Source of the DNA: a virus
Strand: one strand, 5' to 3'
Virus record (IMG/VR): IMGVR_UViG_3300010148_000063
Span: 1-31,263 of that record
Length of the DNA stretch: 31,263 bases
Below the pieces are notes generated by a model. It searched no databases. It saw only the letters and a program-made list of their open reading frames with translations, and was not told where the DNA came from. This document shows positions 9,772 to 24,286 of this stretch, in pieces. The position numbers were made by a program, and so were the translations under genes. Position 1 is the stretch's first letter; every line of letters starts with the position of its first letter.

Positions 9772-9782
9772 TTATAAATATT
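9772..9782 (-). promoter_or_regulatory. Promoter-like motif copy, AATATTTATAA
   Basis: Located 23 nt before the ATG of the 106-aa gene; it starts inside the tape measure stop codon. Confidence 0.6.
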
Positions 9783-12255
9783 AGTTCATTCCACTATAAT
9801 TTATACTTTGTTCTCTTATAAATGCGTTTTGGTTGAAATTAACATTTCTTGTTGTACGTAATACTGCTGTTAATTGTCTTGTTTGATTATCAATTGCTTC
9901 TTGAACACCAGTTGATCCTTGTTCTGTTGCTTTTTCTTGGTCTGATCCATATTCTGAAAAAGCTGCCATTCCACCACCTATTAAACCTCCTACTACTCCT
10001 CCTATAGCTGTTCCAACACCAGGTATTATTGAACCTATCATTGCCCCTGTGGCTGCTCCAGATACTGCTCCTCCAGCAACACTAGTTGCTTTACCTAATT
10101 CTTCATGGCCTGATTCTTTTAAAGCATCTGCTCCATAACTTAATCCTATACCAGCTATTAAAGAAAGGGGATTACCTGCTAATCTTCCAAATTTAGCAAA
10201 TCTACCAACTTTACCTAAGTTACCTAATTTGCTAGCTTTACTAGCCATATTACCTACACTTACTCTTCTTCCTGTTTTAGCATCATAATGAAATTTTCTA
10301 CCTAATTTGTCTGTACCTGCTTTTACACCTTTTGGTAAAGCATTAGAACCACCTGTAGGGCCACCCATAAACATAGGTCCACCCATACCGCCACCAGGTC
10401 CTCCAGCAGGACCATAAAAGGGCATTCCCATTCCTGGTCCCATCATCATTGGTCCTCTCATACCTCTAAATAAACGAGCCATCATCATTACTCCTCTAAC
10501 AATAGGACCTCCTATTGCTAAAGCGGCTAAACCACCCATTAAAATGCCAGCTGAACCTCCCATTTTTTCAAGTAAACTATCTATCACTTTGAAAACAGGT
10601 TTAACATATTTATCAAGAACATCATACATTTTCTCAATCATTTTGTTCATTTTATCCTGCATAGATAGGTTTTTAGCTCTATTTAGCATTTCACTTTTTC
10701 CGAATTTTTTCACTAATTTGTCATAAGATTCTCCAGCTAATAATCTTCTTCTCATTTCTTCAACTACTTCAGACTCTGTTTTAAGACCTTCTTTAGAGAA
10801 CTTTTTTAAAGCTTCATTTTGAATTAACATATCAGCAAATTCATCTCTTTGCATTCCAAAGGAGGCTGCTATAGAATCTTGTGCTATTTTATTCATGTTA
10901 GCAAAATCAGCAGCTGTTCCTACATTTTTAGCTATTTCAGCTGTAAAAGTAACCATATCATTATTTAGATATGCTGATCTAGCTCTTTCAAGATTTAATT
11001 CTTTTCCTGTTATAAGTTCTGCTTCAAGCTCATTTGCTATAGATTGTTCGAAATCCAATAAAGAATTTCCAATTTTTTCCATATCAGCTAGATTAAGACC
11101 TAATTTTCTAGCTTCAAAAGCTGCTTTACCTAAACTTTGACCTTGAGCTTGCATTGACATTTTAGTAGCACTACTTAAATTAGCAATATCATTAATAACT
11201 GCTCTTTGATCAATCATAATACCTGAAAGTGCTGTCTCCGCTACAACAGTACCTTGAATTTCTGCTGTAAAATCCATGAAGTTTTGGCCTGTAGCTGCTG
11301 AGAAATTAGCTAAAGATCCAGCTGCTTCAGCAGCTATTCCCATTCTTTCAGTTAATATATTAAATGTACGTAATGTATCATTATTAAGTTTAGCTGTTGT
11401 ACCAAACATAGTACCTAATGTTGCTTGTGCTTTTATTAAATCATATGATGATTGTAATAATTCATCATTAGCTTGAGCAGCAGCTGTAAACATTTCTTTC
11501 ATATCAGCAGCTTCCATCTTACTGATATTCATTTGGTTGGCTAGATTAACTGAAGATTCATCTAATGTTTTAATAGATTTTATAAAAGTTCCTACTATAA
11601 AAACTTGAGCTGCTTTAGAAGCTAACCTTAAATATTCCTTCATTCCAGCAGCAAGAGCCTTAGTTCTACTTCCTGTATCTACTAAAGTATCATTAAATTT
11701 ATCTGAGGCAGTAGACATATCCTTTAATAATTTACTTAATATAGGTACACCTTCAATTAATTCAGCTAACCCACTAAATGGATTAACAGCATTAAGTTTT
11801 CTACTTAATTTTAAAATAGCTTCATATTGATCTGCTATGTCTTTGGAGAAGCCTCTGGCTGCTTGAAGTTGATGAATACTTTCTAATAATATCTTTCTTT
11901 GTTGTTCATATTCTTCACCCTGTAATGTTGCTGCTTTTGATCTAAGATCATTGATTTGAGCATCTATTTTAGCTTGTTTTTTTCTGGATTCAATGAAAGC
12001 ATCATTAAGCTTTTTAATTCTAGATTTAGATTTTAAGTCATCTCTTGTAATTTTAGCTAATATATTAGCTTCTTTTGTAAGAGCTTTTACACTATCTCCA
12101 GCGTTTCCAACCTCTTCACGGTATATTTTGGAATTTTTGGCTAGGGTATTAAATACTTTACCAATATCTTTAAAGGTATTCTCCATTTGAACACCTTCTA
12201 AATTTAATTTTTTTAAATTATCATCAATATTTTTTAAATCATCCTCTAAAGCCAT
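9781..12255 (-). CDS. Tail tape measure protein
   Basis: An 824-aa protein with the usual tape-measure profile. Residues 1-150 are a charged coiled coil (LKNIDDNLKKLNLEG, TKEANILAKITRDDLKSKSR). The middle (200-550) is an Ala-rich helical region. A hydrophobic stretch (about 565-600) leads into a Met/Gly/Pro-rich segment (585-638), and a glycine-zipper-like region follows (about 698-765, AGGAVSGAATGAMIGSIIPG). At roughly 1.5 angstroms per residue it would fit a tail near 120 nm, somewhat longer than T4. It sits directly downstream of the chaperone, as in most tailed phages. It likely fills the tube lumen, sets tail length and is ejected before DNA, with the hydrophobic parts able to contact the inner membrane. 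No shared sequence with T4 gp29 was checked. Confidence 0.88.
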   Translation of the reverse strand: MALEDDLKNIDDNLKKLNLEGVQMENTFKDIGKVFNTLAKNSKIYREEVGNAGDSVKALTKEANILAKITRDDLKSKSRIKKLNDAFIESRKKQAKIDAQINDLRSKAATLQGEEYEQQRKILLESIHQLQAARGFSKDIADQYEAILKLSRKLNAVNPFSGLAELIEGVPILSKLLKDMSTASDKFNDTLVDTGSRTKALAAGMKEYLRLASKAAQVFIVGTFIKSIKTLDESSVNLANQMNISKMEAADMKEMFTAAAQANDELLQSSYDLIKAQATLGTMFGTTAKLNNDTLRTFNILTERMGIAAEAAGSLANFSAATGQNFMDFTAEIQGTVVAETALSGIMIDQRAVINDIANLSSATKMSMQAQGQSLGKAAFEARKLGLNLADMEKIGNSLLDFEQSIANELEAELITGKELNLERARSAYLNNDMVTFTAEIAKNVGTAADFANMNKIAQDSIAASFGMQRDEFADMLIQNEALKKFSKEGLKTESEVVEEMRRRLLAGESYDKLVKKFGKSEMLNRAKNLSMQDKMNKMIEKMYDVLDKYVKPVFKVIDSLLEKMGGSAGILMGGLAALAIGGPIVRGVMMMARLFRGMRGPMMMGPGMGMPFYGPAGGPGGGMGGPMFMGGPTGGSNALPKGVKAGTDKLGRKFHYDAKTGRRVSVGNMASKASKLGNLGKVGRFAKFGRLAGNPLSLIAGIGLSYGADALKESGHEELGKATSVAGGAVSGAATGAMIGSIIPGVGTAIGGVVGGLIGGGMAAFSEYGSDQEKATEQGSTGVQEAIDNQTRQLTAVLRTTRNVNFNQNAFIREQSINYSGMN

Positions 12256-12291: not shown

Positions 12292-12582
12292 TTATTTATA
12301 TGAAGTTTTTGATTGTTGAGGTCTTACAAAACTAGGTGGAGATACTGTCTTTTTTTCTCTTTTAGCTTGGTTTTTCATTTTAGGATCTACCCAACTTTTT
12401 TCTGGATTGCCTGCCTTAGCTTTATTTTCTTTTTCATAAAACTCTTGAATTTTTTTAAAAGTTAAATTCCTTAACCATATAGGCATATTATAGACAGTAT
12501 TCCAATCATACCCTCCTTTACCATGAAAAACTATTTCATGAATAGTTGTAAAAACAAATTCCCTATAATCAGGAGTCAGGCC
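12292..12582 (-). CDS. Frameshift extension of the tail assembly chaperone (long form C-terminus)
   Basis: This frame has no ATG for its first 32 codons and is open directly from the T7 run at the end of the preceding gene. After residue 242 of the short form it would add 96 residues, starting GLTPDYREFVFTTIHEIVFH and continuing through GKGGYDWNTVYNMPIWLRNL to a Lys-rich end at 12292. The joined product would be about 338 residues (+1 slip) or 339 (-2 slip). A -1 slip meets TGA within three codons. Such extensions are typical of GT-type chaperones, which bind the tape measure. The internal ATG at 12486 could start a 64-aa protein, but that would leave 30-odd conserved-looking codons unexplained. 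Slip direction cannot be decided from sequence alone. Confidence 0.75.
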   Translation of the reverse strand, partial: GLTPDYREFVFTTIHEIVFHGKGGYDWNTVYNMPIWLRNLTFKKIQEFYEKENKAKAGNPEKSWVDPKMKNQAKREKKTVSPPSFVRPQQSKTSYK

Positions 12583-13309
12583 AAAAAAAGTTAAGACCTA
12601 TAGGTAGGTCCGCGACCTCCTCTTCGCCTGTAGGTGTGTTTAGATATACTCTCATATCTAAATCAGGTGATACTTCTTGATAATATTTTCTTAATTCTCT
12701 AGCATCTTTAGCTAAAAGATAATTATTAACAAATTCTCTAATGTCTTTTGTTTCTGAACTGCCATTTACAGATGTAATAATATGAGCAAACCTAGTTGTT
12801 ACTTCACTTGATGATTGTTTATTTATTTTCTTTAAACTCTTTACTTCAGATTCTATTTTTTGTTCATCACCATGAGTTAAGATTTTAAATGTTATTTTAT
12901 TTTCTGTGTGTGGTAAAGTAAATCCAAATTCATTTTTACCATCTTTATATAAATCTTTATCTAATTCTTTAGGATCAATTTTAGATAAATCTACATTTTG
13001 AGGTTCACCTTCATATGAAAACTCATAATTTTTTCCATAAGATAAAATTCGAGCTGCTACCATAATAGCATTTTTATCTCCTATTAATAAATCATTGTAA
13101 TTAATATCTTTATTTACAATTAATGATTTTAATAATTTATCAATTACTATACCTTGTTTTATATAATTTTGATTTGTTAAAATATCTTCTTCCTTAGCGG
13201 TCATATATTTCATTTCAATTTTACCTGAAGAAAGTGGATTTTCTTTAGGGTACATTAAACCTTTAGAGGGAAGATCTATTGTCTCCGTAGGTAACTTAAA
13301 TTCTGCCAT
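12569..13309 (-). CDS. gp26/T4_baseplate-family tail assembly chaperone, short form
   Basis: A 246-aa protein beginning MAEFKLPTETIDLPSKG, then KIEMKYMTAKEEDILTN and LLIGDKNAIMVAARILSYG. This matches the T4 gp26 (T4_baseplate) family. Between the tube and tape measure genes it occupies the place of the tail assembly chaperone (lambda G position). Zero-frame translation ends in NFFWPDS just after seven consecutive T's (12589-12583). A +1 or -2 slip there enters a 96-codon open frame (12582-12292), so this protein is probably the short member of a G/GT-type pair. The ATG is 28 nt from a copy of the promoter-like motif. The family call is by pattern; the chaperone role is inferred from position and the frameshift layout. 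Confidence 0.85.
   Translation of the reverse strand: MAEFKLPTETIDLPSKGLMYPKENPLSSGKIEMKYMTAKEEDILTNQNYIKQGIVIDKLLKSLIVNKDINYNDLLIGDKNAIMVAARILSYGKNYEFSYEGEPQNVDLSKIDPKELDKDLYKDGKNEFGFTLPHTENKITFKILTHGDEQKIESEVKSLKKINKQSSSEVTTRFAHIITSVNGSSETKDIREFVNNYLLAKDARELRKYYQEVSPDLDMRVYLNTPTGEEEVADLPIGLNFFWPDS
12583..12589 (-). other. Putative programmed frameshift site (T7 run)
   Basis: Sense-strand sequence AACTTTTTTTGGCC. Zero-frame codons are AAC TTT TTT TGG. Re-phasing by +1 gives TTT GGC and by -2 gives TTT TTT GGC, both opening the downstream frame. The run lies four codons before the zero-frame stop. Confidence 0.7.
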
Positions 13310-13410: not shown

Positions 13411-14094
13411 TTATAATTTATGTTTTGATTTAGCTTCATGGATTTTAGCATTTTGATTAAACCAATAATTTAATCCTTTATCAAACCATGTCCAAAGTCT
13501 AGTATCTAAAATATCATGTAAAACAACAGCTTTAGAATTAGGTTTAGTTGAATAGAAATATTCATAACCTAAAGCTAATATATCATCATCTAAATGATCC
13601 ATTAATACTTCACTAAACATAAATCCACCATTTGCCCAATTTATATCCTTATAAGTATCTAAACATATATTTATTGCTCTTGAATTTGGAGCTGATCCAT
13701 ATACAGTACAATCCAACATCCAATTTTTTTCATTACAATCTGTTCTTTTAACACCACCAAAAAATGTTATGTTCTCTGAACATTTATTTAAAATTGTATT
13801 AAATGATTTAAGAGGCTTGGCATCAACATCAACATATACTCCTCCAAAATCTCTTAGTAGTAATAATCTTATTCTATCACTAATATAAGCATATTTAAAT
13901 AGTTCTGGTTGTTTAATGTAGTTTTGAAGGAATTTATCATTTTTGTATATATCTGTAAATATTTCATTTCCCCATAAATGATATTCCCAATCTGGATGCA
14001 TTTCTTGCATTTCTTTTGTAAATTGTTTACAATGATCAGGCATTTCTTTTTCCCCTATCCAAATTTGATGGATAATTTTTGGTATTTTGGACAT
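13411..14094 (-). CDS. DXD-type sugar transferase (Gly_transf_sug family)
   Basis: A 227-aa glycosyltransferase of the OCH1/capsular polysaccharide type. Hallmarks: PKIIHQIWIGEKEMP (5-19), HPDWEYHLW (33-41), a helix with AYISDRIRLLLL (69-80), and GGVYVDVDA (84-92) with the nucleotide-sugar and metal-binding Asp89-x-Asp91. Length is near that of the catalytic domain alone and no membrane segment is seen. It would transfer a sugar from a nucleotide donor; the acceptor is unknown. It sits between the tail tube and chaperone genes, with its own promoter-like motif upstream and a terminator-like hairpin on each side, so it looks like a moron. It might glycosylate virion proteins or modify host surface polysaccharide. 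Confidence 0.85.
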   Translation of the reverse strand: MSKIPKIIHQIWIGEKEMPDHCKQFTKEMQEMHPDWEYHLWGNEIFTDIYKNDKFLQNYIKQPELFKYAYISDRIRLLLLRDFGGVYVDVDAKPLKSFNTILNKCSENITFFGGVKRTDCNEKNWMLDCTVYGSAPNSRAINICLDTYKDINWANGGFMFSEVLMDHLDDDILALGYEYFYSTKPNSKAVVLHDILDTRLWTWFDKGLNYWFNQNAKIHEAKSKHKL

Positions 14095-14171: not shown

Positions 14172-14660
14172 TTAGAAATTAAGTACAGCGTAATCTAATC
14201 CTAATGTTAATTCAATTTGTTTAGCTTCATTTTCTGTGTCCCAACTATATTCACCGAATATAGCTTCTTTAATAAATGCTCCTTGTAATATCCATTCTGA
14301 TACTATATCACCTACTGGTCCTAAAACATTTAAAGTTAAATTCTTTTTATAAAAATCAGAATAACCATCTCTACCTGTTACTGATTCATGATGTAATCTC
14401 ACCCATTCCATTACTGCTTGAGCTCCTGAAGGTGTGATTGGATCAAATAATGTCATTGTAACATCATTCCATACTGTTTTTCCTTTAACTTTTCTAAGAA
14501 TGTTAATGTGGTTTAATATTACCTCACCTTGTGTTAATGATATAGCACTAATTCCTTTAATGATAAAACTTGGTATACCATCCATATAAAGGATAAATCT
14601 GTTAGCTTGCTTTGGCTCAAAAGCGGTGAAAAATATTTCATTGGGATCTAATACTGCCAT
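14172..14660 (-). CDS. 19: Tail tube protein (gp19-like)
   Basis: A 162-aa protein, almost identical in length to T4 gp19 (163 aa). It begins MAVLDPNEIFFTAFEPKQAN, then RFILYMDGIPSFIIKG, and ends GEYSWDTENEAKQIELTLGL, the beta-sandwich pattern of T4_gp19-family inner tube proteins. It lies immediately downstream of the sheath gene, as in T4. It forms the hexameric rings of the inner tube through which DNA passes. A strong terminator follows its stop codon, which would allow separate high expression. The ATG is 21 nt from a copy of the promoter-like motif. Confidence 0.93.
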   Translation of the reverse strand: MAVLDPNEIFFTAFEPKQANRFILYMDGIPSFIIKGISAISLTQGEVILNHINILRKVKGKTVWNDVTMTLFDPITPSGAQAVMEWVRLHHESVTGRDGYSDFYKKNLTLNVLGPVGDIVSEWILQGAFIKEAIFGEYSWDTENEAKQIELTLGLDYAVLNF

Positions 14661-14706: not shown

Positions 14707-16851
14707 TTATGCTGGGAAAGTAGCTCCAGTTGGTAATATGTTGAAATCTAAGTAAATAAATTCAGCAGTTTTAGTTGGTTGAATATATATTTGACCTATT
14801 AATTGATTTCTATCAATAACATCTGGTGTGTTATTACTATCATCCATTACTACTTTAAAAGCAAATAATCCTTGTCTTTGTTGTACACTTGATAGATATG
14901 GGTTAACTTGGCTTAAGAAATTATTTCTTGTAGCTATTGTATTTTGTTCAAATACTAAATTATTAGCAATTTGTGAAATAAAGTTTTTCAAGGCTATTAA
15001 TAATCTTCTTACATTTACTCTATCTAACGCTGAAGCTTTAGATTGTAATGTTTTCTGACCAAATACTACTACTCCTGTGTTAGGGAATGTAGCTATTGGA
15101 TTTACATTAGCTTGATATAAAGTATCTCTATTACCATTTGTTAATTTTCTTTCAGCTCTTAATACTGTAGACATTCCACCTCTATTTAAACCTGCAGGTG
15201 CAAACCATGCTTCTCCTGCTGTATCATTAAAAGCAAATACTCCAGGCATCATAGTTGAAGCAGGCACCCAAACTTGTTGACCTAAATCTGGATCAATTGT
15301 TTGTAACCAAGGCCAATATGTAGCAGCATATGAAGAATCTATTGCTGAAGCTCCAGCTGTTACTGAATTAATTCCTGATCCCCAATCTCTTAAATCCACA
15401 ATTGATAAATTATCTCCCCTTTGTTGAGATATATCAATCATTGATGCTAATGGTGATGAATGACTTTGCATTGTTAATCCTGGTGCTACTATTAAATTGT
15501 ATTGGTATTCATCTCTATTAGATAATAAATTAATTGAAACATTATAATTATCATCAACTAATCCTTGTGTATTACCTGTAACACCACCATCTATATTTTC
15601 ATAAAAATTACCTGTAACTCCATCAAAAGCAGTTCCTTCAGCATCACCAAATGTGCCTGATTGAGCTACTGGGATAGAGTCAAGATATTGTGGTCTTGGA
15701 TTTCCGGCATTATCAAAATAATTTAATGTTTTTGATTCTACTGATTTTACTCTTACAAAATTACTTAATGTATTATAAGTTCCTTCATTTTTAACATAGT
15801 ATTCACCTGTTCCAGTGTCTTGAGTTACTGTTTGTTTTGAATTACCAATTACTTTTTCAATGTAATTTGGGGCATTTGGGTCTAATGATAAATCAGCCCA
15901 AGTTTCTAATACTGTTTTTGAGGTTGTTATATCATCACCTCTTCTAATTAATAAACTAAATGTTCCTGTAGCTGTGTTTGGTGATACAACTTCCCACCTA
16001 ATATTATCTTTAGTACCATTAGCTAAATTACCACCAGCTCCTTCTGAGCCTGTACTATTTTGATCTGTACCTTCTGATATTGTTTCTAAAGTAAATGAAT
16101 TACTAAAAGTAGCATCTACTCCACCTGATAAATCTAATTCTTTTGGAGCTGATCCAGCATATAGTTGAACTTGAGAACCAGCATTTAAATCAATGTCATT
16201 TCCTGCTGTACCTACATTTTTAGTTTCAAGTGTTATTATTCCACTTACATTATCAAATGATGCTTGTATACCATAATCAAATATTCCTACTCCACCTAAA
16301 TTAGTGTTAATTGAATCTGCTAACCCTTGTCCTTCTCCTGTATAATAATATATACCGGCAGCTGTAAAAGCATTATTAGATGAGGCTGATAAAAAGATTT
16401 TAGTACCGGCATTTCCATCAATTGGATTTCCTGGTAATCCTTCTATACTAATTCCTTCTATAGATGTTCCTGGTTCTGTTACATTATAGAGATAATTACC
16501 ACTAGCTGTGGCTCCTGGGGTAGCTGTGTTTCCATTTTCAACTTTTGAACTAGTTGCTGTTGTGTAAGAACCACTTACTACTCTAGTTACTAATAATGAA
16601 TCTCCTCCTTGTTGGAAATAATTATAAGCTGCTATTGATGTAAAGTAAGTGTACTCTGCACTTCCACTTTCTACTACAGCACCAAATTTATTTTTATATT
16701 CACTATATGTGGTAACTAATGTTGGAAGACCAACAGGACCTTTAACTGTGGGTCCTAATATTGCTGCTCCTGCTTGTACTGGTTGTGCTGATAGGAAAGA
16801 TTGGTCTGTTTCGCTAGCTAATACACCTGGGGATAATAATACTTCTGCCAT
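14707..16851 (-). CDS. 18: Contractile tail sheath protein (gp18-like)
   Basis: A 714-aa protein (T4 gp18: 659 aa). It begins MAEVLLSPGVLASETDQSFL and has AAILGPTVKGPVGLPTLVT, the standard N-terminal sheath pattern. The C-terminal part contains NRDTLYQANVNPIATFPNTG followed by VVFGQKTLQSKASALDRVNV and RRLLIALKNFISQIANNLVF, the conserved core that forms the interlocking sheath lattice. The middle region (about 100-430) is Gly/Ser/Thr-rich and variable, as expected for the outward-facing domain. It contracts to drive the tube through the host envelope. It has its own promoter-like motif 21 nt before the ATG, and tube follows 46 nt later. Confidence 0.95.
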   Translation of the reverse strand: MAEVLLSPGVLASETDQSFLSAQPVQAGAAILGPTVKGPVGLPTLVTTYSEYKNKFGAVVESGSAEYTYFTSIAAYNYFQQGGDSLLVTRVVSGSYTTATSSKVENGNTATPGATASGNYLYNVTEPGTSIEGISIEGLPGNPIDGNAGTKIFLSASSNNAFTAAGIYYYTGEGQGLADSINTNLGGVGIFDYGIQASFDNVSGIITLETKNVGTAGNDIDLNAGSQVQLYAGSAPKELDLSGGVDATFSNSFTLETISEGTDQNSTGSEGAGGNLANGTKDNIRWEVVSPNTATGTFSLLIRRGDDITTSKTVLETWADLSLDPNAPNYIEKVIGNSKQTVTQDTGTGEYYVKNEGTYNTLSNFVRVKSVESKTLNYFDNAGNPRPQYLDSIPVAQSGTFGDAEGTAFDGVTGNFYENIDGGVTGNTQGLVDDNYNVSINLLSNRDEYQYNLIVAPGLTMQSHSSPLASMIDISQQRGDNLSIVDLRDWGSGINSVTAGASAIDSSYAATYWPWLQTIDPDLGQQVWVPASTMMPGVFAFNDTAGEAWFAPAGLNRGGMSTVLRAERKLTNGNRDTLYQANVNPIATFPNTGVVVFGQKTLQSKASALDRVNVRRLLIALKNFISQIANNLVFEQNTIATRNNFLSQVNPYLSSVQQRQGLFAFKVVMDDSNNTPDVIDRNQLIGQIYIQPTKTAEFIYLDFNILPTGATFPA

Positions 16852-18762: not shown

Positions 18763-21639
18763 TTACACTGCATTATGTCCTGTGTAGGCTTGTTTAATTT
18801 TCTCTATATGGCTAGGATTAATTAATTCACCTTCTTCATTTCTAGCGAAAGAATAATTAGCATTATACTCTCTATCTCCTGCTGTCCATGCATCATCGTC
18901 TCTAAATCCATTACCTGAAGCCCAATCTTCATCCATTTTTTCTAAAACATCTAAAATTTTACCAACTTTTCCATTCACTGGATCTGCGTCAGCAATAGTA
19001 GATGCTAGTTCTGAAGCGACAGAAACTATTATACTATCTAACATTTGTAATGTTTTATTAGATTTAACCATAGCGTCTTGTAATATTGGGATAGCTCTTT
19101 CTATTCTTTGAGATTCTCTTTGGAAAATTAAAGAAACAGCTGCAAACATATAATTAATCTTTGATAATGCTATTCTAGCTTCCATAGCTTTTGCATGTTT
19201 ATCCAAATAATCTTGAAATTTAATAGCAATTTGCTCTTCTACTTCTTCAGCTACATAAGCATCATAAGCTGCTGTTTTATCTGCTTCTCTAGCTTCTAAA
19301 GCAGCTGTAGCCTCAGCTTTTTCTTGTTGATATTTTGCTTTATCTGCTTGAAATTGAGCCATAAGAGCTTCTCCACTTCGTTCAAGTTTATCAAACATTG
19401 TTGTATACCCTGCCAAATCAGCTGAACTATCTTCTTTAGCAGCTTTAGCTCTTTTTTCAAGGTCTACTAATTTTTTAGATGCTTCTTCAACTTTTAAAGC
19501 TTTAGTTTCTAATCTAAAGAAATTAATTGATTGATATATACCTGATCTTCTTTCAGTGTCATTAGCTATCACTCCATCTTCACTATTTTTACCTACATGT
19601 CTAAGTAATAATTTAGATGATTCTATAGCCCATTGGTCTAATGGTATATTTTCAGCATCAACCTCTGCTTTTAAAGCCATTTTAGCTGCTACATATAAAT
19701 CATTTGTTAATACATGTGATGAACCATCTTCCATACTAGAATACCAATATACACCTTCTCCTGTTTGCATACCTCTCATATCAGTAGCTTTTTGAAGAGT
19801 TTTAACTGTGTTCTCAAGATGTTGAACTGTAGATTCTTTAGAATTTTTACTACTATCAATAGCTTTTGCTGATAGTTCATTCAATTTAGAAGCATGTTGT
19901 TCTGAATACTCAGCCTCTGCTTTTTCATCTTGTGTTAAAGTTCCAACTAAAGCTAACCAATCACTTAATTCTGTAGCAAAAGCCTCATGATCTTCTTTTT
20001 GAGTATCAGATAAAGTTACAATTAAATCCATTAATTGTTGTTGTTGATCTTCTTTTAAGCCTAAGTTTCTGATAGCAGCTGGTAGAGATTCCTCTCCTTC
20101 ACCTTTTTCATAAACACCATTAAATACGCTAAACATAGCAGCGACATTATTTGTACCTAATTCTTCTGATTCTTCAGCTTGAGATGTTTTTATTTGTTCA
20201 ATTGATTCTTTTACCTCTGCTAATTTTTCATTAGCTTTAGCTACTAATTCTGCATTTAAAGATGTAAAGTATTCATTAGATTCTTCTTTTACTTCTTTGA
20301 AATCCTGAGTTAAATAAGCACCAACTTCCTGACCTAATCTCATTAATGTGGTTAATTCAGGTGTGTCACCTGCGTCTAATGGATCACTTCCTAAAGTAGT
20401 TTCATTAGCATCAGATACACCATCACCATCATCATCAGTATCAGCATTGTTTCCAATACCATCACCATCTGTATCTACTGATTCATCTGGGTTGTATGGG
20501 AATGCATCATCTACATTAAGTACAGTATCACCATCAATATCATCATCAGCAAAATCTGGAGAGCCGTCACCATCTGTATCTACAGAATAAGTGTATCCAT
20601 TTTCATCTACAGGTCTTGTACCTATAGGATCTGTACTTTCCATTGCTTTGATTTGATCTTCTATAAAAGGAATAGCATCTCCTAATTCCTCAATAGTAGC
20701 CATTGTATCGTCTAGTTGTCTTTCTAAACCTTCAGTTGGTTCACCAGCAGCTTGAGCGTCTTTTATAGCTTGTTGAATTTTAGTTTTACTATCTTTTGCT
20801 TTGATTTCATCTTTTTTAAGTTGCTCAAGTTTTCTTTTTACTTCTTGCATCTGCGATAAATCAATTATTCTAACTAAAGGTTGATCAGCTGGGGCCACTA
20901 TTACTAGTTCTCCATCATTAATTTTAGTTGATAATGAATCATACTGTGAGGAAGCTTTATCTCTACTTGCTTCTAATGCTTCTTTTTCAGCTGTGATTTT
21001 AGTTATCATGTCTGTTTTTTCAGCAATAATAGCTTCTTTTTCAGCAATAATAGCTGTTTTTTCAGCAATAGCAGCAGTTAAATCTTCAATATCCTTTGTA
21101 AGTTGAGCAATTTCAGTTTTTGAAGCAGCTTCATCAGCTTGAGCTTCAGCAAAATCCGCTTCATATGATGCTAAAGCAGTGTTTGCTGTTGTTAATTGTG
21201 TCTGTAAAGCCTGTCTGTCTGCATCAGATAACTCATCATTTTCAAGTTGAGATTCTATTGAAGCAATTTTAGCTTTTTCAGCACCAATTAAATCTTGCGC
21301 AGCTACTTGTTCTGCCAAAGCTTCTCCTTCAGCTTCTGTAGCAGCTACCTTTTTGGTTTCTTTATCTGCTTTTGTAGCCTCAGCAGCTGCTTTTTCAGAT
21401 GTTGCTACCTCTTTAGCTTCTGTTGCTACCGCTTTTGAAGTTTGAGCTTCATCTAAGCTAGCTTCATAAGATTCAAATAATGAATCACTATGTGCTATAA
21501 AATCAGCATGCGCAGCTTGGATGTTTGTCCAATCTTGTTGGGTAATCTTTGTGTTGTAAGAGAGTGGGTAGTATGGCGAGCCATCTCCTATTTCTCCTTC
21601 AACAAAAAGTCTATTTTTAAATATATCATATTTACTCAT
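18763..21639 (-). CDS. Long coiled-coil protein with thrombospondin type 3 (calcium) repeats
   Basis: A 958-aa acidic protein in four parts. The N-terminus (1-50) is a short globular-looking part with GDGSPYYPLSYNTK. Residues about 50-345 are Ala/Glu/Lys-rich coiled coil, including a short repeat IAEKTAIIAEKEAIIAEKTD. Residues 354-428 are thrombospondin type 3 repeats: three clear DxDxDG units (DTDGDGSPDF, DTDGDGIGNN, DDDGDGVSDAN), which usually bind calcium and form stiff rods. Residues about 435-930 are again long helices. No signal peptide or membrane segment was seen. This layout suggests a long fibrous virion part stiffened by calcium; TSP3 repeats are common in surface proteins of Bacteroidota. 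It heads a three-gene unit with a 93-nt leader. No T4 counterpart is recognised, and a non-virion role is possible. Confidence 0.8.
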   Translation of the reverse strand: MSKYDIFKNRLFVEGEIGDGSPYYPLSYNTKITQQDWTNIQAAHADFIAHSDSLFESYEASLDEAQTSKAVATEAKEVATSEKAAAEATKADKETKKVAATEAEGEALAEQVAAQDLIGAEKAKIASIESQLENDELSDADRQALQTQLTTANTALASYEADFAEAQADEAASKTEIAQLTKDIEDLTAAIAEKTAIIAEKEAIIAEKTDMITKITAEKEALEASRDKASSQYDSLSTKINDGELVIVAPADQPLVRIIDLSQMQEVKRKLEQLKKDEIKAKDSKTKIQQAIKDAQAAGEPTEGLERQLDDTMATIEELGDAIPFIEDQIKAMESTDPIGTRPVDENGYTYSVDTDGDGSPDFADDDIDGDTVLNVDDAFPYNPDESVDTDGDGIGNNADTDDDGDGVSDANETTLGSDPLDAGDTPELTTLMRLGQEVGAYLTQDFKEVKEESNEYFTSLNAELVAKANEKLAEVKESIEQIKTSQAEESEELGTNNVAAMFSVFNGVYEKGEGEESLPAAIRNLGLKEDQQQQLMDLIVTLSDTQKEDHEAFATELSDWLALVGTLTQDEKAEAEYSEQHASKLNELSAKAIDSSKNSKESTVQHLENTVKTLQKATDMRGMQTGEGVYWYSSMEDGSSHVLTNDLYVAAKMALKAEVDAENIPLDQWAIESSKLLLRHVGKNSEDGVIANDTERRSGIYQSINFFRLETKALKVEEASKKLVDLEKRAKAAKEDSSADLAGYTTMFDKLERSGEALMAQFQADKAKYQQEKAEATAALEAREADKTAAYDAYVAEEVEEQIAIKFQDYLDKHAKAMEARIALSKINYMFAAVSLIFQRESQRIERAIPILQDAMVKSNKTLQMLDSIIVSVASELASTIADADPVNGKVGKILDVLEKMDEDWASGNGFRDDDAWTAGDREYNANYSFARNEEGELINPSHIEKIKQAYTGHNAV

Positions 21640-22415: not shown

Positions 22416-22426
22416 ATATAAATATT
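22416..22426 (-). promoter_or_regulatory. Promoter-like motif copy, AATATTTATAT, next to a start codon
   Basis: Located 4 nt before the ATG of the 202-aa gene and overlapping the stop codon of the repeat-bearing fibre. Confidence 0.5.
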
Positions 22427-23945
22427 AAAAAATAAACCAACCTGTATTACCATCACTAACAATTGATATAGATTCAAATTGGTCATCTAAGTCTTCATAA
22501 TTAGAATTCCCATCTATAGTATCTGATCCTTGACATTCTAAGGCAACTAAATTAGCAGCAGCATTTTGTGTTAATTTAAAAAATATTTGTCTACCAGGAT
22601 ATGTAGCAGCATCTGGTAGATTTATTGTGATATTACCACTTGAAGGATCAATTAGTATAAATTGTTCTGTTCCTGTTAGTGTGTAAGGTGAATTTCCATT
22701 ATTTATTGAAACTGTACCTGTGTTTAAAAATGAGCCTATTATTGTAAATGATCCTGTTAGTATTTGATTATTTTTAAAATCATTAGAACCTGTTGTAGCA
22801 TAACTTCCTGTTTTAGATTGTAAATCTATTATTAATCCATCATTAGTACTTATATTAGTCTCATTACTTGTTACTCTTGTTGAAAAAGAACTACTGTCTG
22901 ATTTTAGGCCTGTTATTCTAGTTGAAAAAGATCCACTATCACTTTTTAGATTTGTTAATTTTGTAGAAAAAGAACCACTGTCTGATTTTAAATTAGTAAT
23001 TCTAGTTGAGAATGAACCACTGTCTGATTTTAAGTTTGTTATTCTTGTGGAAAAAGAACCACTGTCTGATTTTAGGCCTGTTATTCTTGTGGAAAAAGAA
23101 CCACTATCTGATTTTAAACCAGTAATTCTTGTACTAAATGAGCCACTATCTGATTTTAGGTCTGTTATTCTTGTAGAAAAAGAACCACTATCATTTTTTA
23201 GATTTGTAACTCTAGTTGAGAATGAACCACTGTCTGATTTTAAACCTGTTATTCTAGTTGAAAAGGATCCACTATCATTTTTTAAACTTGTTATTCTATT
23301 TGAAAAAGAGCCACTATCTAATTTTATTCTTTCATCAAAACTAGAACTAACTAAGCCAAAAGCTCCAGATATGTCTGAGGATATTTGTGTTGAACTACTT
23401 ATTGCTCCTTCAAATATACCTTGAAATTTTTTAGCTATAATATTTTTACTTGAACTAATATTACTTGAGGCTGTTATTGATGTTGTTAATATACCATCTG
23501 AACCTCCTATTCCTGATGAAACTTCACCTGTTGATGAAACTCCAAAATTTGTAGATACTATAGTTAAACTATCATCACCTGTATCTATTGTTAAAGGACT
23601 GTTACCTTCCACATAACTAAAAGATCCTGATGTAGCTGTTATTTTTGAAGCTGTTATATCTCCACTAGCACTAATATTTCCTGAAGCTGTTATACTAGAA
23701 AAAGGTTGAATAACACCACTAGCCATAACCATTGAAGAAGTTTCAGAGTAAGAAGAAGATATTTCTTTTAAAATTTCATGAGAAGCTGATAAAGCATAAC
23801 TAGCTGATATTGAAAAATCAGAGTGGGAAGATGTTAAAGCGTAACTAGCTGTTTCAGCTAATTCAGCTGATCCACCACTCCCACCAACATTTCCACCTGG
23901 GCTTATTGTAATACTGCTATCTACAAATCTAACTTTATCTGCCAT
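22425..23945 (-). CDS. Tail fibre with eleven 14-residue repeats
   Basis: A 506-aa fibre-type protein. The N-terminal half is Ser/Ala/Gly-rich with TASYALTSSHSDFSISASYA and alternating SGNISASGDITASKI units, typical of fibres in marine T4-like phages. Eleven tandem 14-residue units follow (consensus DSGSFSTRITGLKS; DNA 22857-23318). Phe5, Ile9 and Leu12 of each unit keep a 4-3 spacing, consistent with a trimeric coiled coil. The C-terminus reads YTLTGTEQFILIDPSSG and ends WFIF, a beta-rich head domain. It has a promoter-like motif 14 nt before the ATG. It likely forms a trimeric fibre or neck whisker; receptor binding is inferred only. Confidence 0.85.
   Translation of the reverse strand: MADKVRFVDSSITISPGGNVGGSGGSAELAETASYALTSSHSDFSISASYALSASHEILKEISSSYSETSSMVMASGVIQPFSSITASGNISASGDITASKITATSGSFSYVEGNSPLTIDTGDDSLTIVSTNFGVSSTGEVSSGIGGSDGILTTSITASSNISSSKNIIAKKFQGIFEGAISSSTQISSDISGAFGLVSSSFDERIKLDSGSFSNRITSLKNDSGSFSTRITGLKSDSGSFSTRVTNLKNDSGSFSTRITDLKSDSGSFSTRITGLKSDSGSFSTRITGLKSDSGSFSTRITNLKSDSGSFSTRITNLKSDSGSFSTKLTNLKSDSGSFSTRITGLKSDSSSFSTRVTSNETNISTNDGLIIDLQSKTGSYATTGSNDFKNNQILTGSFTIIGSFLNTGTVSINNGNSPYTLTGTEQFILIDPSSGNITINLPDAATYPGRQIFFKLTQNAAANLVALECQGSDTIDGNSNYEDLDDQFESISIVSDGNTGWFIF
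22857..23318 (-). repeat. Eleven tandem 42-bp repeats inside the fibre gene
   Basis: The period is exactly 42 bp and every copy is in frame. Copies differ mainly at codons 9-13 and at synonymous sites (the last copy is degenerate), so the array is old enough to have diverged but could still change copy number by recombination. Confidence 0.9.
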
Positions 23946-23959
23946 TTTTATTTTATTAA

Positions 23960-23970
23960 TTATAAATATT
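23960..23970 (-). promoter_or_regulatory. Promoter-like motif copy, AATATTTATAA
   Basis: Located 14 nt before the ATG of the 506-aa fibre gene; it touches the stop codon of the 105-aa gene. Confidence 0.6.
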
Positions 23971-24286
23971 ATCCAGTTGATACTTTTGGAGTACCTCCAT
24001 CATTCCATATTACACCTTCTATTCCTGGGTCTGAAGTTGGTAAAGAACTTAATGATACATTTGCCGGTGGTGATGGTTGATTAGGAAAAGTCATAGCTGG
24101 GTTATTTAACCTAGCTCCTCCTAATGTTTTTCTACTTCTTCCATCAGGGGTTGTTGTAGGATTTGACTCAAATACTTCTGGATTTGATGTGGTTTCTACT
24201 CCAAATATAATTTTAGACTTATCATTATATTTTTTAATAGCTTTCATATCTTTTTGAACTACATCAGGAACTATATATCCATACAT
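23969..24286 (-). CDS. Small virion-type protein of unknown function
   Basis: A 105-aa protein beginning MYGYIVPDVVQKDMKAIKKY. The middle is Pro/Thr/Ser/Asn-rich and likely extended (TTTPDGRSRKTLGGARLNN). The end reads GIEGVIWNDGGTPKVSTG, a short beta motif of the kind found at the ends of phage structural proteins. It lies between the gp15-like gene and the fibre, with 42 nt before it and no promoter-like motif, so it is likely the last gene of the neck transcript. I cannot name it. Confidence 0.7.
   Translation of the reverse strand: MYGYIVPDVVQKDMKAIKKYNDKSKIIFGVETTSNPEVFESNPTTTPDGRSRKTLGGARLNNPAMTFPNQPSPPANVSLSSLPTSDPGIEGVIWNDGGTPKVSTG

Follow-up and report, generated by a model that had tools for sequence, protein, structure and literature searches.

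G-T frameshifting, the mechanism of which is described for phage lambda in the review of Atkins et al., is stated there to be widely conserved 'except T4' (PMC5009743). The same review considers the tail chaperone of the haloarchaeal myovirus HSTV-2, a G/T-type gene, as very likely shifted in the +1 direction, while the heptamer of gene 17.5 in phage SPP1 was reported to be U UUU UUC (PMC6316719). Further +1 shifts have been described at CCC codons of capsid or tube genes, in cps and tsh of Listeria phage PSA and in 17.1 of SPP1 (PMC5009743, PMC6316719). As for T4, its gp51 was reported to be absent from the final particle (PMC3004832). In a literature search, outside of which most subscription papers fell, we found no prior report of such a frameshift in T4-like phages, of a switch in its direction or of an equivalence with gp26/gp51. 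The idea that gp26 and gp51 function as chaperones is itself not new, because tape measure chaperone labels are carried by one or the other in some recent annotations (KP1079, Konradin, Moon). Lastly, the +1 frameshift of E. coli prfB proceeds by re-pairing of a Leu-tRNA at CUU U and serves autoregulation.

The window analysed here, 31,263 bases long, is a virus record. On its minus strand lies a PF12322 gene (12569-13309, 246 amino acids) that ends in AAC TTT TTT TGG CCT GAC TCC TGA. The protein belongs to PF12322 (T4_baseplate), with 30.3 bits against a gathering cut-off of 24.5, and also matches phrog_150, 'baseplate hub'; we regard this core, closed by the TGA at 12569-12571, as the putative short form, G-like and T4 gp26-like. 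The run of seven T's within AAC TTT TTT TGG (12583-12589, minus strand) is the probable place of a +1 slip on a Phe codon, and the near-invariant recoding site around it, TTTTTTTGGCCTGAC (12575-12589, minus strand), reads F F W P D in frame 0 and F F G L T in the +1 frame. Past the run, the zero frame reads W-P-D-S and then stops at 12569-12571, the -1 frame closes after F-L-A, and the +1 frame continues for 96 codons plus a stop, beginning with the GGC at 12582 and closed by a stop whose last base is 12292. Given the base composition of the window the probability of 97 open codons is about 0.001, so the +1 frame exceeds chance. This T-like extension (12292-12582, minus strand) starts GLTPDYREFVFTTIHEIVFHGKGGYDWNTVYNMPIWLRN and is related, via intermediates, to the C-terminus of T4 gp51. 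Joined to the core it gives a predicted long form of 338 amino acids (12292-13309, minus strand; GT-like, or T4 gp51-like), which aligns collinearly with positions 10-271 of the 282 of the phrog_150 profile; the short form covers 10-233. In the +1 frame no ATG comes before codon index 32 (12486); the one there opens a detached ORF of 64 amino acids (12292-12486, minus strand), which is what a gene caller would report. To judge from the alignments, this ATG is probably not a real start because it sits within a conserved YNMP motif. The first-pass annotation had thus read the locus correctly in claiming a stop four codons after seven T's, a 96-codon frame without ATG for 32 codons that a +1 slip would open, a -1 slip that fails at once, a long form of about 338 amino acids and a lone 64-residue ORF as the only trace left by ordinary gene calling; the database search with the joined sequence that it proposed is the phrog_150 comparison above.

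The genomic context is that of a G/GT-type gene, which lies between the tube and tape measure genes. Directly downstream of the chaperone gene is that of the tail tape measure protein (9781-12255, minus strand, 824 amino acids; phrog_167, 5.6e-11), and upstream are those of the tail tube (14172-14660, minus strand; phrog_4542, 5.2e-16) and, from profile matches, of the tail sheath (14707-16851, minus strand). One extra gene in this tail module, glycosyltransferase-like (13411-14094, minus strand, 227 amino acids; Gly_transf_sug DXD, 4.7e-13), is inserted between tube and chaperone. The tube, chaperone and tape measure placement recurs in immuto and SP-15. In cyanophages and jumbo phages the PF12322 gene does not always adjoin the tape measure gene, which counts against our reading. 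Elsewhere among the structural genes, a 958-residue protein (18763-21639, minus strand) has a weak match to bacterial TSP3 repeats (2.8e-4) and is otherwise unknown. At 23945-24286 (minus strand) the long frame of gene 22425-23945 runs on without a stop over the end of the gene before it (23969-24286), which is probably just a normal gene junction.

Searching viral contigs with the core returned 80 relatives of 60-97% identity. All 80, as well as the window, carry TTTYTTTGGCCTGA at the same position, followed by a conserved +1 extension of 79-113 codons where complete. Because one of the search peptides had spanned the site, the scan was repeated with only the downstream part of the extension, and TTTYTTTGG with a +1 extension was again found in 79 of 80 cases, locus L242 being the sole exception. 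Among 60 non-redundant relatives, stops per 80 codons amount to 0.017 in the +1 frame, 11.4 in frame 0 and 5.1 in frame -1. Variation in the extension is of the coding type in these members, third positions being the most variable as in the core (heterozygosity at codon positions 1/2/3 of 0.355/0.270/0.499 for the extension and 0.327/0.195/0.482 for the core gene), and the +1 frame of the extension is under purifying selection. The 15-nt site TTTYTTTGGCCTGAC is essentially invariant, synonymous positions included: in the same 60 sequences the third positions of both Phe codons are constant, and nothing changes but the second codon, where TTT gives way to CTT. Some relatives and Flavobacterium phage immuto carry TTTCTTTGG at the site. 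No conserved stimulatory RNA structure was found at the +1 site, with a mean z near 0 over the 60 nt downstream. An upstream AGGAGG, a conceivable Shine-Dalgarno-like stimulator, is kept in many, though not all, of the relatives.

The exception proved informative. L242 reads AAT TTT TTC TGG, which contains the canonical U UUU UUC heptamer, and has its extension in the -1 frame. A pattern scan for this version returned 46 stretches, 23 of which are family members; in each of these 23 the +1 frame soon runs into a stop and the extension is found in the -1 frame instead. The canonical -1 arrangement, X XXY YYZ together with an open -1 frame, is present in 23 family members and in 80 cyanophage-type loci and absent from the window. 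When 184 loci were tested with HMMs in all six frames, TTTYTTTGG went with a +1 extension in 161 and TTTTTTCTGG with a -1 extension in 23, while no locus combined them differently or had both frames fused into a single ORF. The 184 loci include near-copies and so represent fewer independent events. The -1 members are split on the core tree between a clade of 11 rows (100/96) and one row beside +1 sequences (93/58); therefore the slip direction, as inferred from this tree, probably changed more than once. Slip site and frame switch together, which is hard to explain without programmed frameshifting and would not be expected of a separate gene, of an error in sequencing or of a decayed gene. We therefore consider a programmed frameshift at the PF12322 gene of the window very likely, and the +1 direction in its lineage likely, although no wet-lab evidence exists for either. 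For the C-terminally extended second product that a G/GT-type pair would make through a conserved frameshift, the evidence is comparative only (184 of 184 loci) and the product has not been seen experimentally. The first-pass annotation had asked for the T-run and both frames to be kept across relatives, which they are in all 161 TTTYTTTGG loci. It would have given way to an in-frame fusion in relatives or to a conserved start of the downstream frame; the former is absent from the 184 loci, and of the latter there is none.

Frame switching at the same position extends across the wider T4-type family. A +1 overlap at the FF codons is present in RM378, Mel-JY01, SP-15, LIS04, GXN1 and a 484-kb phage. 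All 80 cyanophage-type loci, by comparison, have a -1 site, T TTT TTC, at the Phe-Phe that ends the core, with a stop shortly after and an extension of about 60 amino acids with a MIPWER-type motif. The -1 version, which across these phages reads T TTT TTC/TTT/TTG, also occurs in the jumbo phages RaK2, PBECO4, BF, 7t3, PA5oct, Atu_ph07, SCTP-2, RAS14, XacN1 and a 595-kb phage, in Stenotrophomonas phage BUCT608, in the Emmerichvirinae VmeM32 and Aswh_1 and in Rhizobium phage RL38J1, while the -1 extension of Vibrio phage BX-1 is at G TTT TTC. The family is not tied to +1, since a subclade and most other T4-like phages arrive at the same extension via -1; what seems to be conserved is hence the pair of products and not the direction of the slip. 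Salmonella phage barely (Kuttervirus; L203, 1495-2298) has an open -1 extension after its PF12322 gene without a canonical heptamer (GAA ATT TTC ATT TAA TTT TTG), and the route to this extension is unexplained. The 60 nt after TTTTTTC at the cyanophage-type sites (L117-L196) have a mean folding z of -1.96 against plain shuffles; a search for a consensus RNA structure downstream of these sites gave no convincing one.

Both T4 gp26 (208 amino acids, 8.8e-64) and gp51 (249 amino acids, 3.9e-52) match PF12322 and are therefore paralogues. A direct hhalign comparison of the window-family extension with gp51 was not significant (E 0.55), though in the expected register, and for this reason sampling was widened. 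The cyanophage extension HMM matches the C-terminal residues 213-247 of a gp51-type protein (L098) with 24.8 bits, against 8.0 for its best decoy, and scores below zero on gp26. Other extension profiles connect jumbo phages with LIS04 (21.4 bits) and Mel-JY01 (16.1), and Firmicute phages with the window family (16.1 bits) and the 595-kb phage (14.8). As a control, 3,440 shuffled decoys scored 7.3-8.0 at best (8.0 for the cyanophage profile, 7.3-7.7 for the others). The window extension is thus connected with gp51 only indirectly, cyanophage, jumbo and Firmicute-phage sequences being the intermediates. The tree places gp26 and gp51 together in a single clade (98/87); its sister group is the frameshifting Emmerichvirinae (96/81), and all of these are Straboviridae. 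The detached extension ORF of cyanophage S-BM1 has already been named 'gp51' by its annotators. In Klebsiella phage KP15 and Cronobacter phage Invicta genes 51 and 26 are adjacent, overlapping and on one strand, the long before the short. These tandem pairs are at L110 2001-3295 and L116 1163-2456, and the two genes of T4 diverge; the KP15 and Invicta arrangement is possibly closer to the state just after duplication. T4 gene 26 (L090, 4803-5090) has an annotated internal-start product, 26', so that the short-form gene also makes two products. PHROG calls gp51 a 'baseplate hub assembly catalyst', a historical label that, by analogy with gpGT, might fit a long form needed in small amounts. The simplest history compatible with these sequences would be a duplication of the frameshifted gene in the T4 branch, after which the extension was retained in frame by one copy and lost from the other.

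Structure predictions add to this picture within limits. The AlphaFold model of the core (pLDDT 90.5) matches SP-15 and several T4-like 'baseplate hub' proteins in BFVD, together with a 225-residue entry of the same length as the RM378 protein, and that of gp51 (pLDDT 86.9) matches gp26 proteins and SP-15. Sequence and fold searches of the PDB found no relative, and a Pfam search gave no tail-chaperone match for the window protein. As the gp51 model matches nothing solved, kinship with lambda G cannot be claimed. The first-pass suggestion of a T4-like equivalent of lambda G/GT is accordingly supported in architecture and context, and reaches further than proposed, to gp26/gp51, while homology to lambda G remains unshown.

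Our preferred reading, to which we give a probability of roughly 90%, is that a T4-type contractile tail has its pair of tail assembly chaperones encoded at this locus, with T4 gp26/gp51 as the split form of the pair. Most ribosomes would stop at 12569 and yield the short protein of 246 residues, and a minority would slip +1 on the UUU of AAC UUU UUU UGG to yield the 338-residue long form. If lambda G/GT is a guide, coating of the tape measure protein would fall to the shared domain and recruitment of tail tube subunits to the extension. Duplicated genes would supply both products in T4 and its near relatives, gp26 the short and gp51 the long one with the extension in frame. Beneath this proposal lie comparative observations, namely the conserved site and frame, the joint switch of both, the relation of the extension to the gp51 tail and the single gp26/gp51 clade; the shift in cells, its efficiency and the binding roles are inferred, without ribosome profiling, peptide or reporter data.

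Several alternatives have to be weighed. The frameshift could be real and T4 gp26/gp51 nonetheless not its counterparts, their likeness being that of an old duplication with other roles, and both have indeed long been listed as hub or hub assembly proteins (PMC3004832). Yet the extension-like tail is on gp51 alone, the gp26/gp51 clade is nested beside frameshifting Straboviridae, and recent annotators label both proteins as tape measure chaperones; we find this alternative unlikely, though not negligible. That gp26/gp51 are the split form of a T4-type G/GT equivalent remains likely, even without wet-lab evidence. We also think it quite probable that T4 is no exception: PF12322 chaperones would come in a short and a long version throughout the T4-type tail lineage, the slip at one and the same pair of Phe codons would have reversed its direction several times without loss of the extension, and in the T4 branch of the Straboviridae the recoded gene would have been replaced by duplication, with gp26 short and gp51 long.

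A second alternative concerns the slip itself, which the first-pass annotation had left as +1 or -2. A -2 slip, as in phage Mu, reaches the identical frame with one extra Phe before the Gly, and TTTTTTT would let a single Phe-tRNA re-pair at -2. The sites of other +1 phages (GXN1, TTC TTT CGT; the 484-kb phage, AAC TTT CTA; SP-15, GAA TTT TTT CAC; RM378 and Mel-JY01, TTT TTT TGG) all permit a Phe-tRNA on UUU to re-pair with UUU or UUC one base on, but those of GXN1 and the 484-kb phage, which allow TTT to TTC, pair poorly at -2. TTTCTTTGG is at best weakly compatible with -2. Because TTCTTTCGT and AACTTTCTA suit +1 re-pairing and hardly -2, we favour +1, which stays unproved, and regard -2 as improbable. 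The frame named in the first-pass annotation stands, with the reservation that the family does not hold to one direction, given the -1 subclade.

The polymerase might slip in place of the ribosome, a minority of mRNAs having one U fewer or two more; long T runs are prone to slippage, and the window and most relatives do have T7. Such slippage would call for a conserved homopolymer, and the TTTCTTTGG relatives share the architecture with a longest run of three, which argues more strongly against this explanation than against -2 and makes it unlikely as a general mechanism. Since the -1 relatives moreover have the canonical ribosomal heptamer T TTT TTC, we give transcriptional slippage very little credence. 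Even less can be said for the downstream frame as an independent small gene, started by reinitiation or at a non-ATG codon. The ATG of the 64-residue ORF exists, and cyanophage annotators label a small ORF here 'gp51', but neither ATG, GTG nor TTG occurs before codon 32 of the extension, a start at the first Met within YNMP would lose the conserved HEIVFHG..GGYDW half, conservation is unbroken across the slip site, and the site type predicts the extension frame in 184 of 184 loci. A sequencing or assembly error, to which homopolymer runs are prone, or a decayed gene can be practically dismissed, as the same frame relation holds in 161 loci from many assemblies, two MAG contigs and isolates such as immuto and RM378.

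If the ribosomal +1 shift and the split into gp26/gp51 are correct, T4 would fit the frameshift rule, both proteins would gain a defined and testable role, and the family would offer a clean case of a recoded gene replaced by gene duplication. The natural series in which one extension is reached via +1 or -1 at the same codons could be useful for studying how frameshift direction evolves. Many phage annotations, finally, would be missing the long product or calling a spurious small ORF.

Compared with known systems, the locus would resemble lambda gpG/gpGT and SPP1 17.5/17.5* in a gene between tube and tape measure, a frameshift near its 3' end and a short and an extended product, and SPP1 17.5 shares U UUU UUC with most T4-like relatives. 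In contrast to lambda G/GT, the window lineage would shift +1 at UUUYUUUGG, in a layout of 246 + 96 codons, and its family, PF12322, could not be matched to lambda G either in sequence or through a solved structure. With cps/tsh of PSA and 17.1 of SPP1 it would have in common a programmed +1 shift near the end of a structural gene and an extended minor product, but those shifts are at CCC, whereas here UUU/CUU before UGG in a chaperone gene would be used. HSTV-2 very probably shares +1 in a G/T-type gene, though in an archaeal virus. The re-pairing at CUU U in prfB is what the TTTCTTTGG variants would allow; prfB, unlike the window, has a stop codon in the A site and autoregulates, while the window has the Trp codon UGG and would make two products. 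T4 gp26 and gp51 share the family and the core with the window protein, and in the case of gp51 a C-terminus related to the frameshift extension, but are the products of two genes without recoding.
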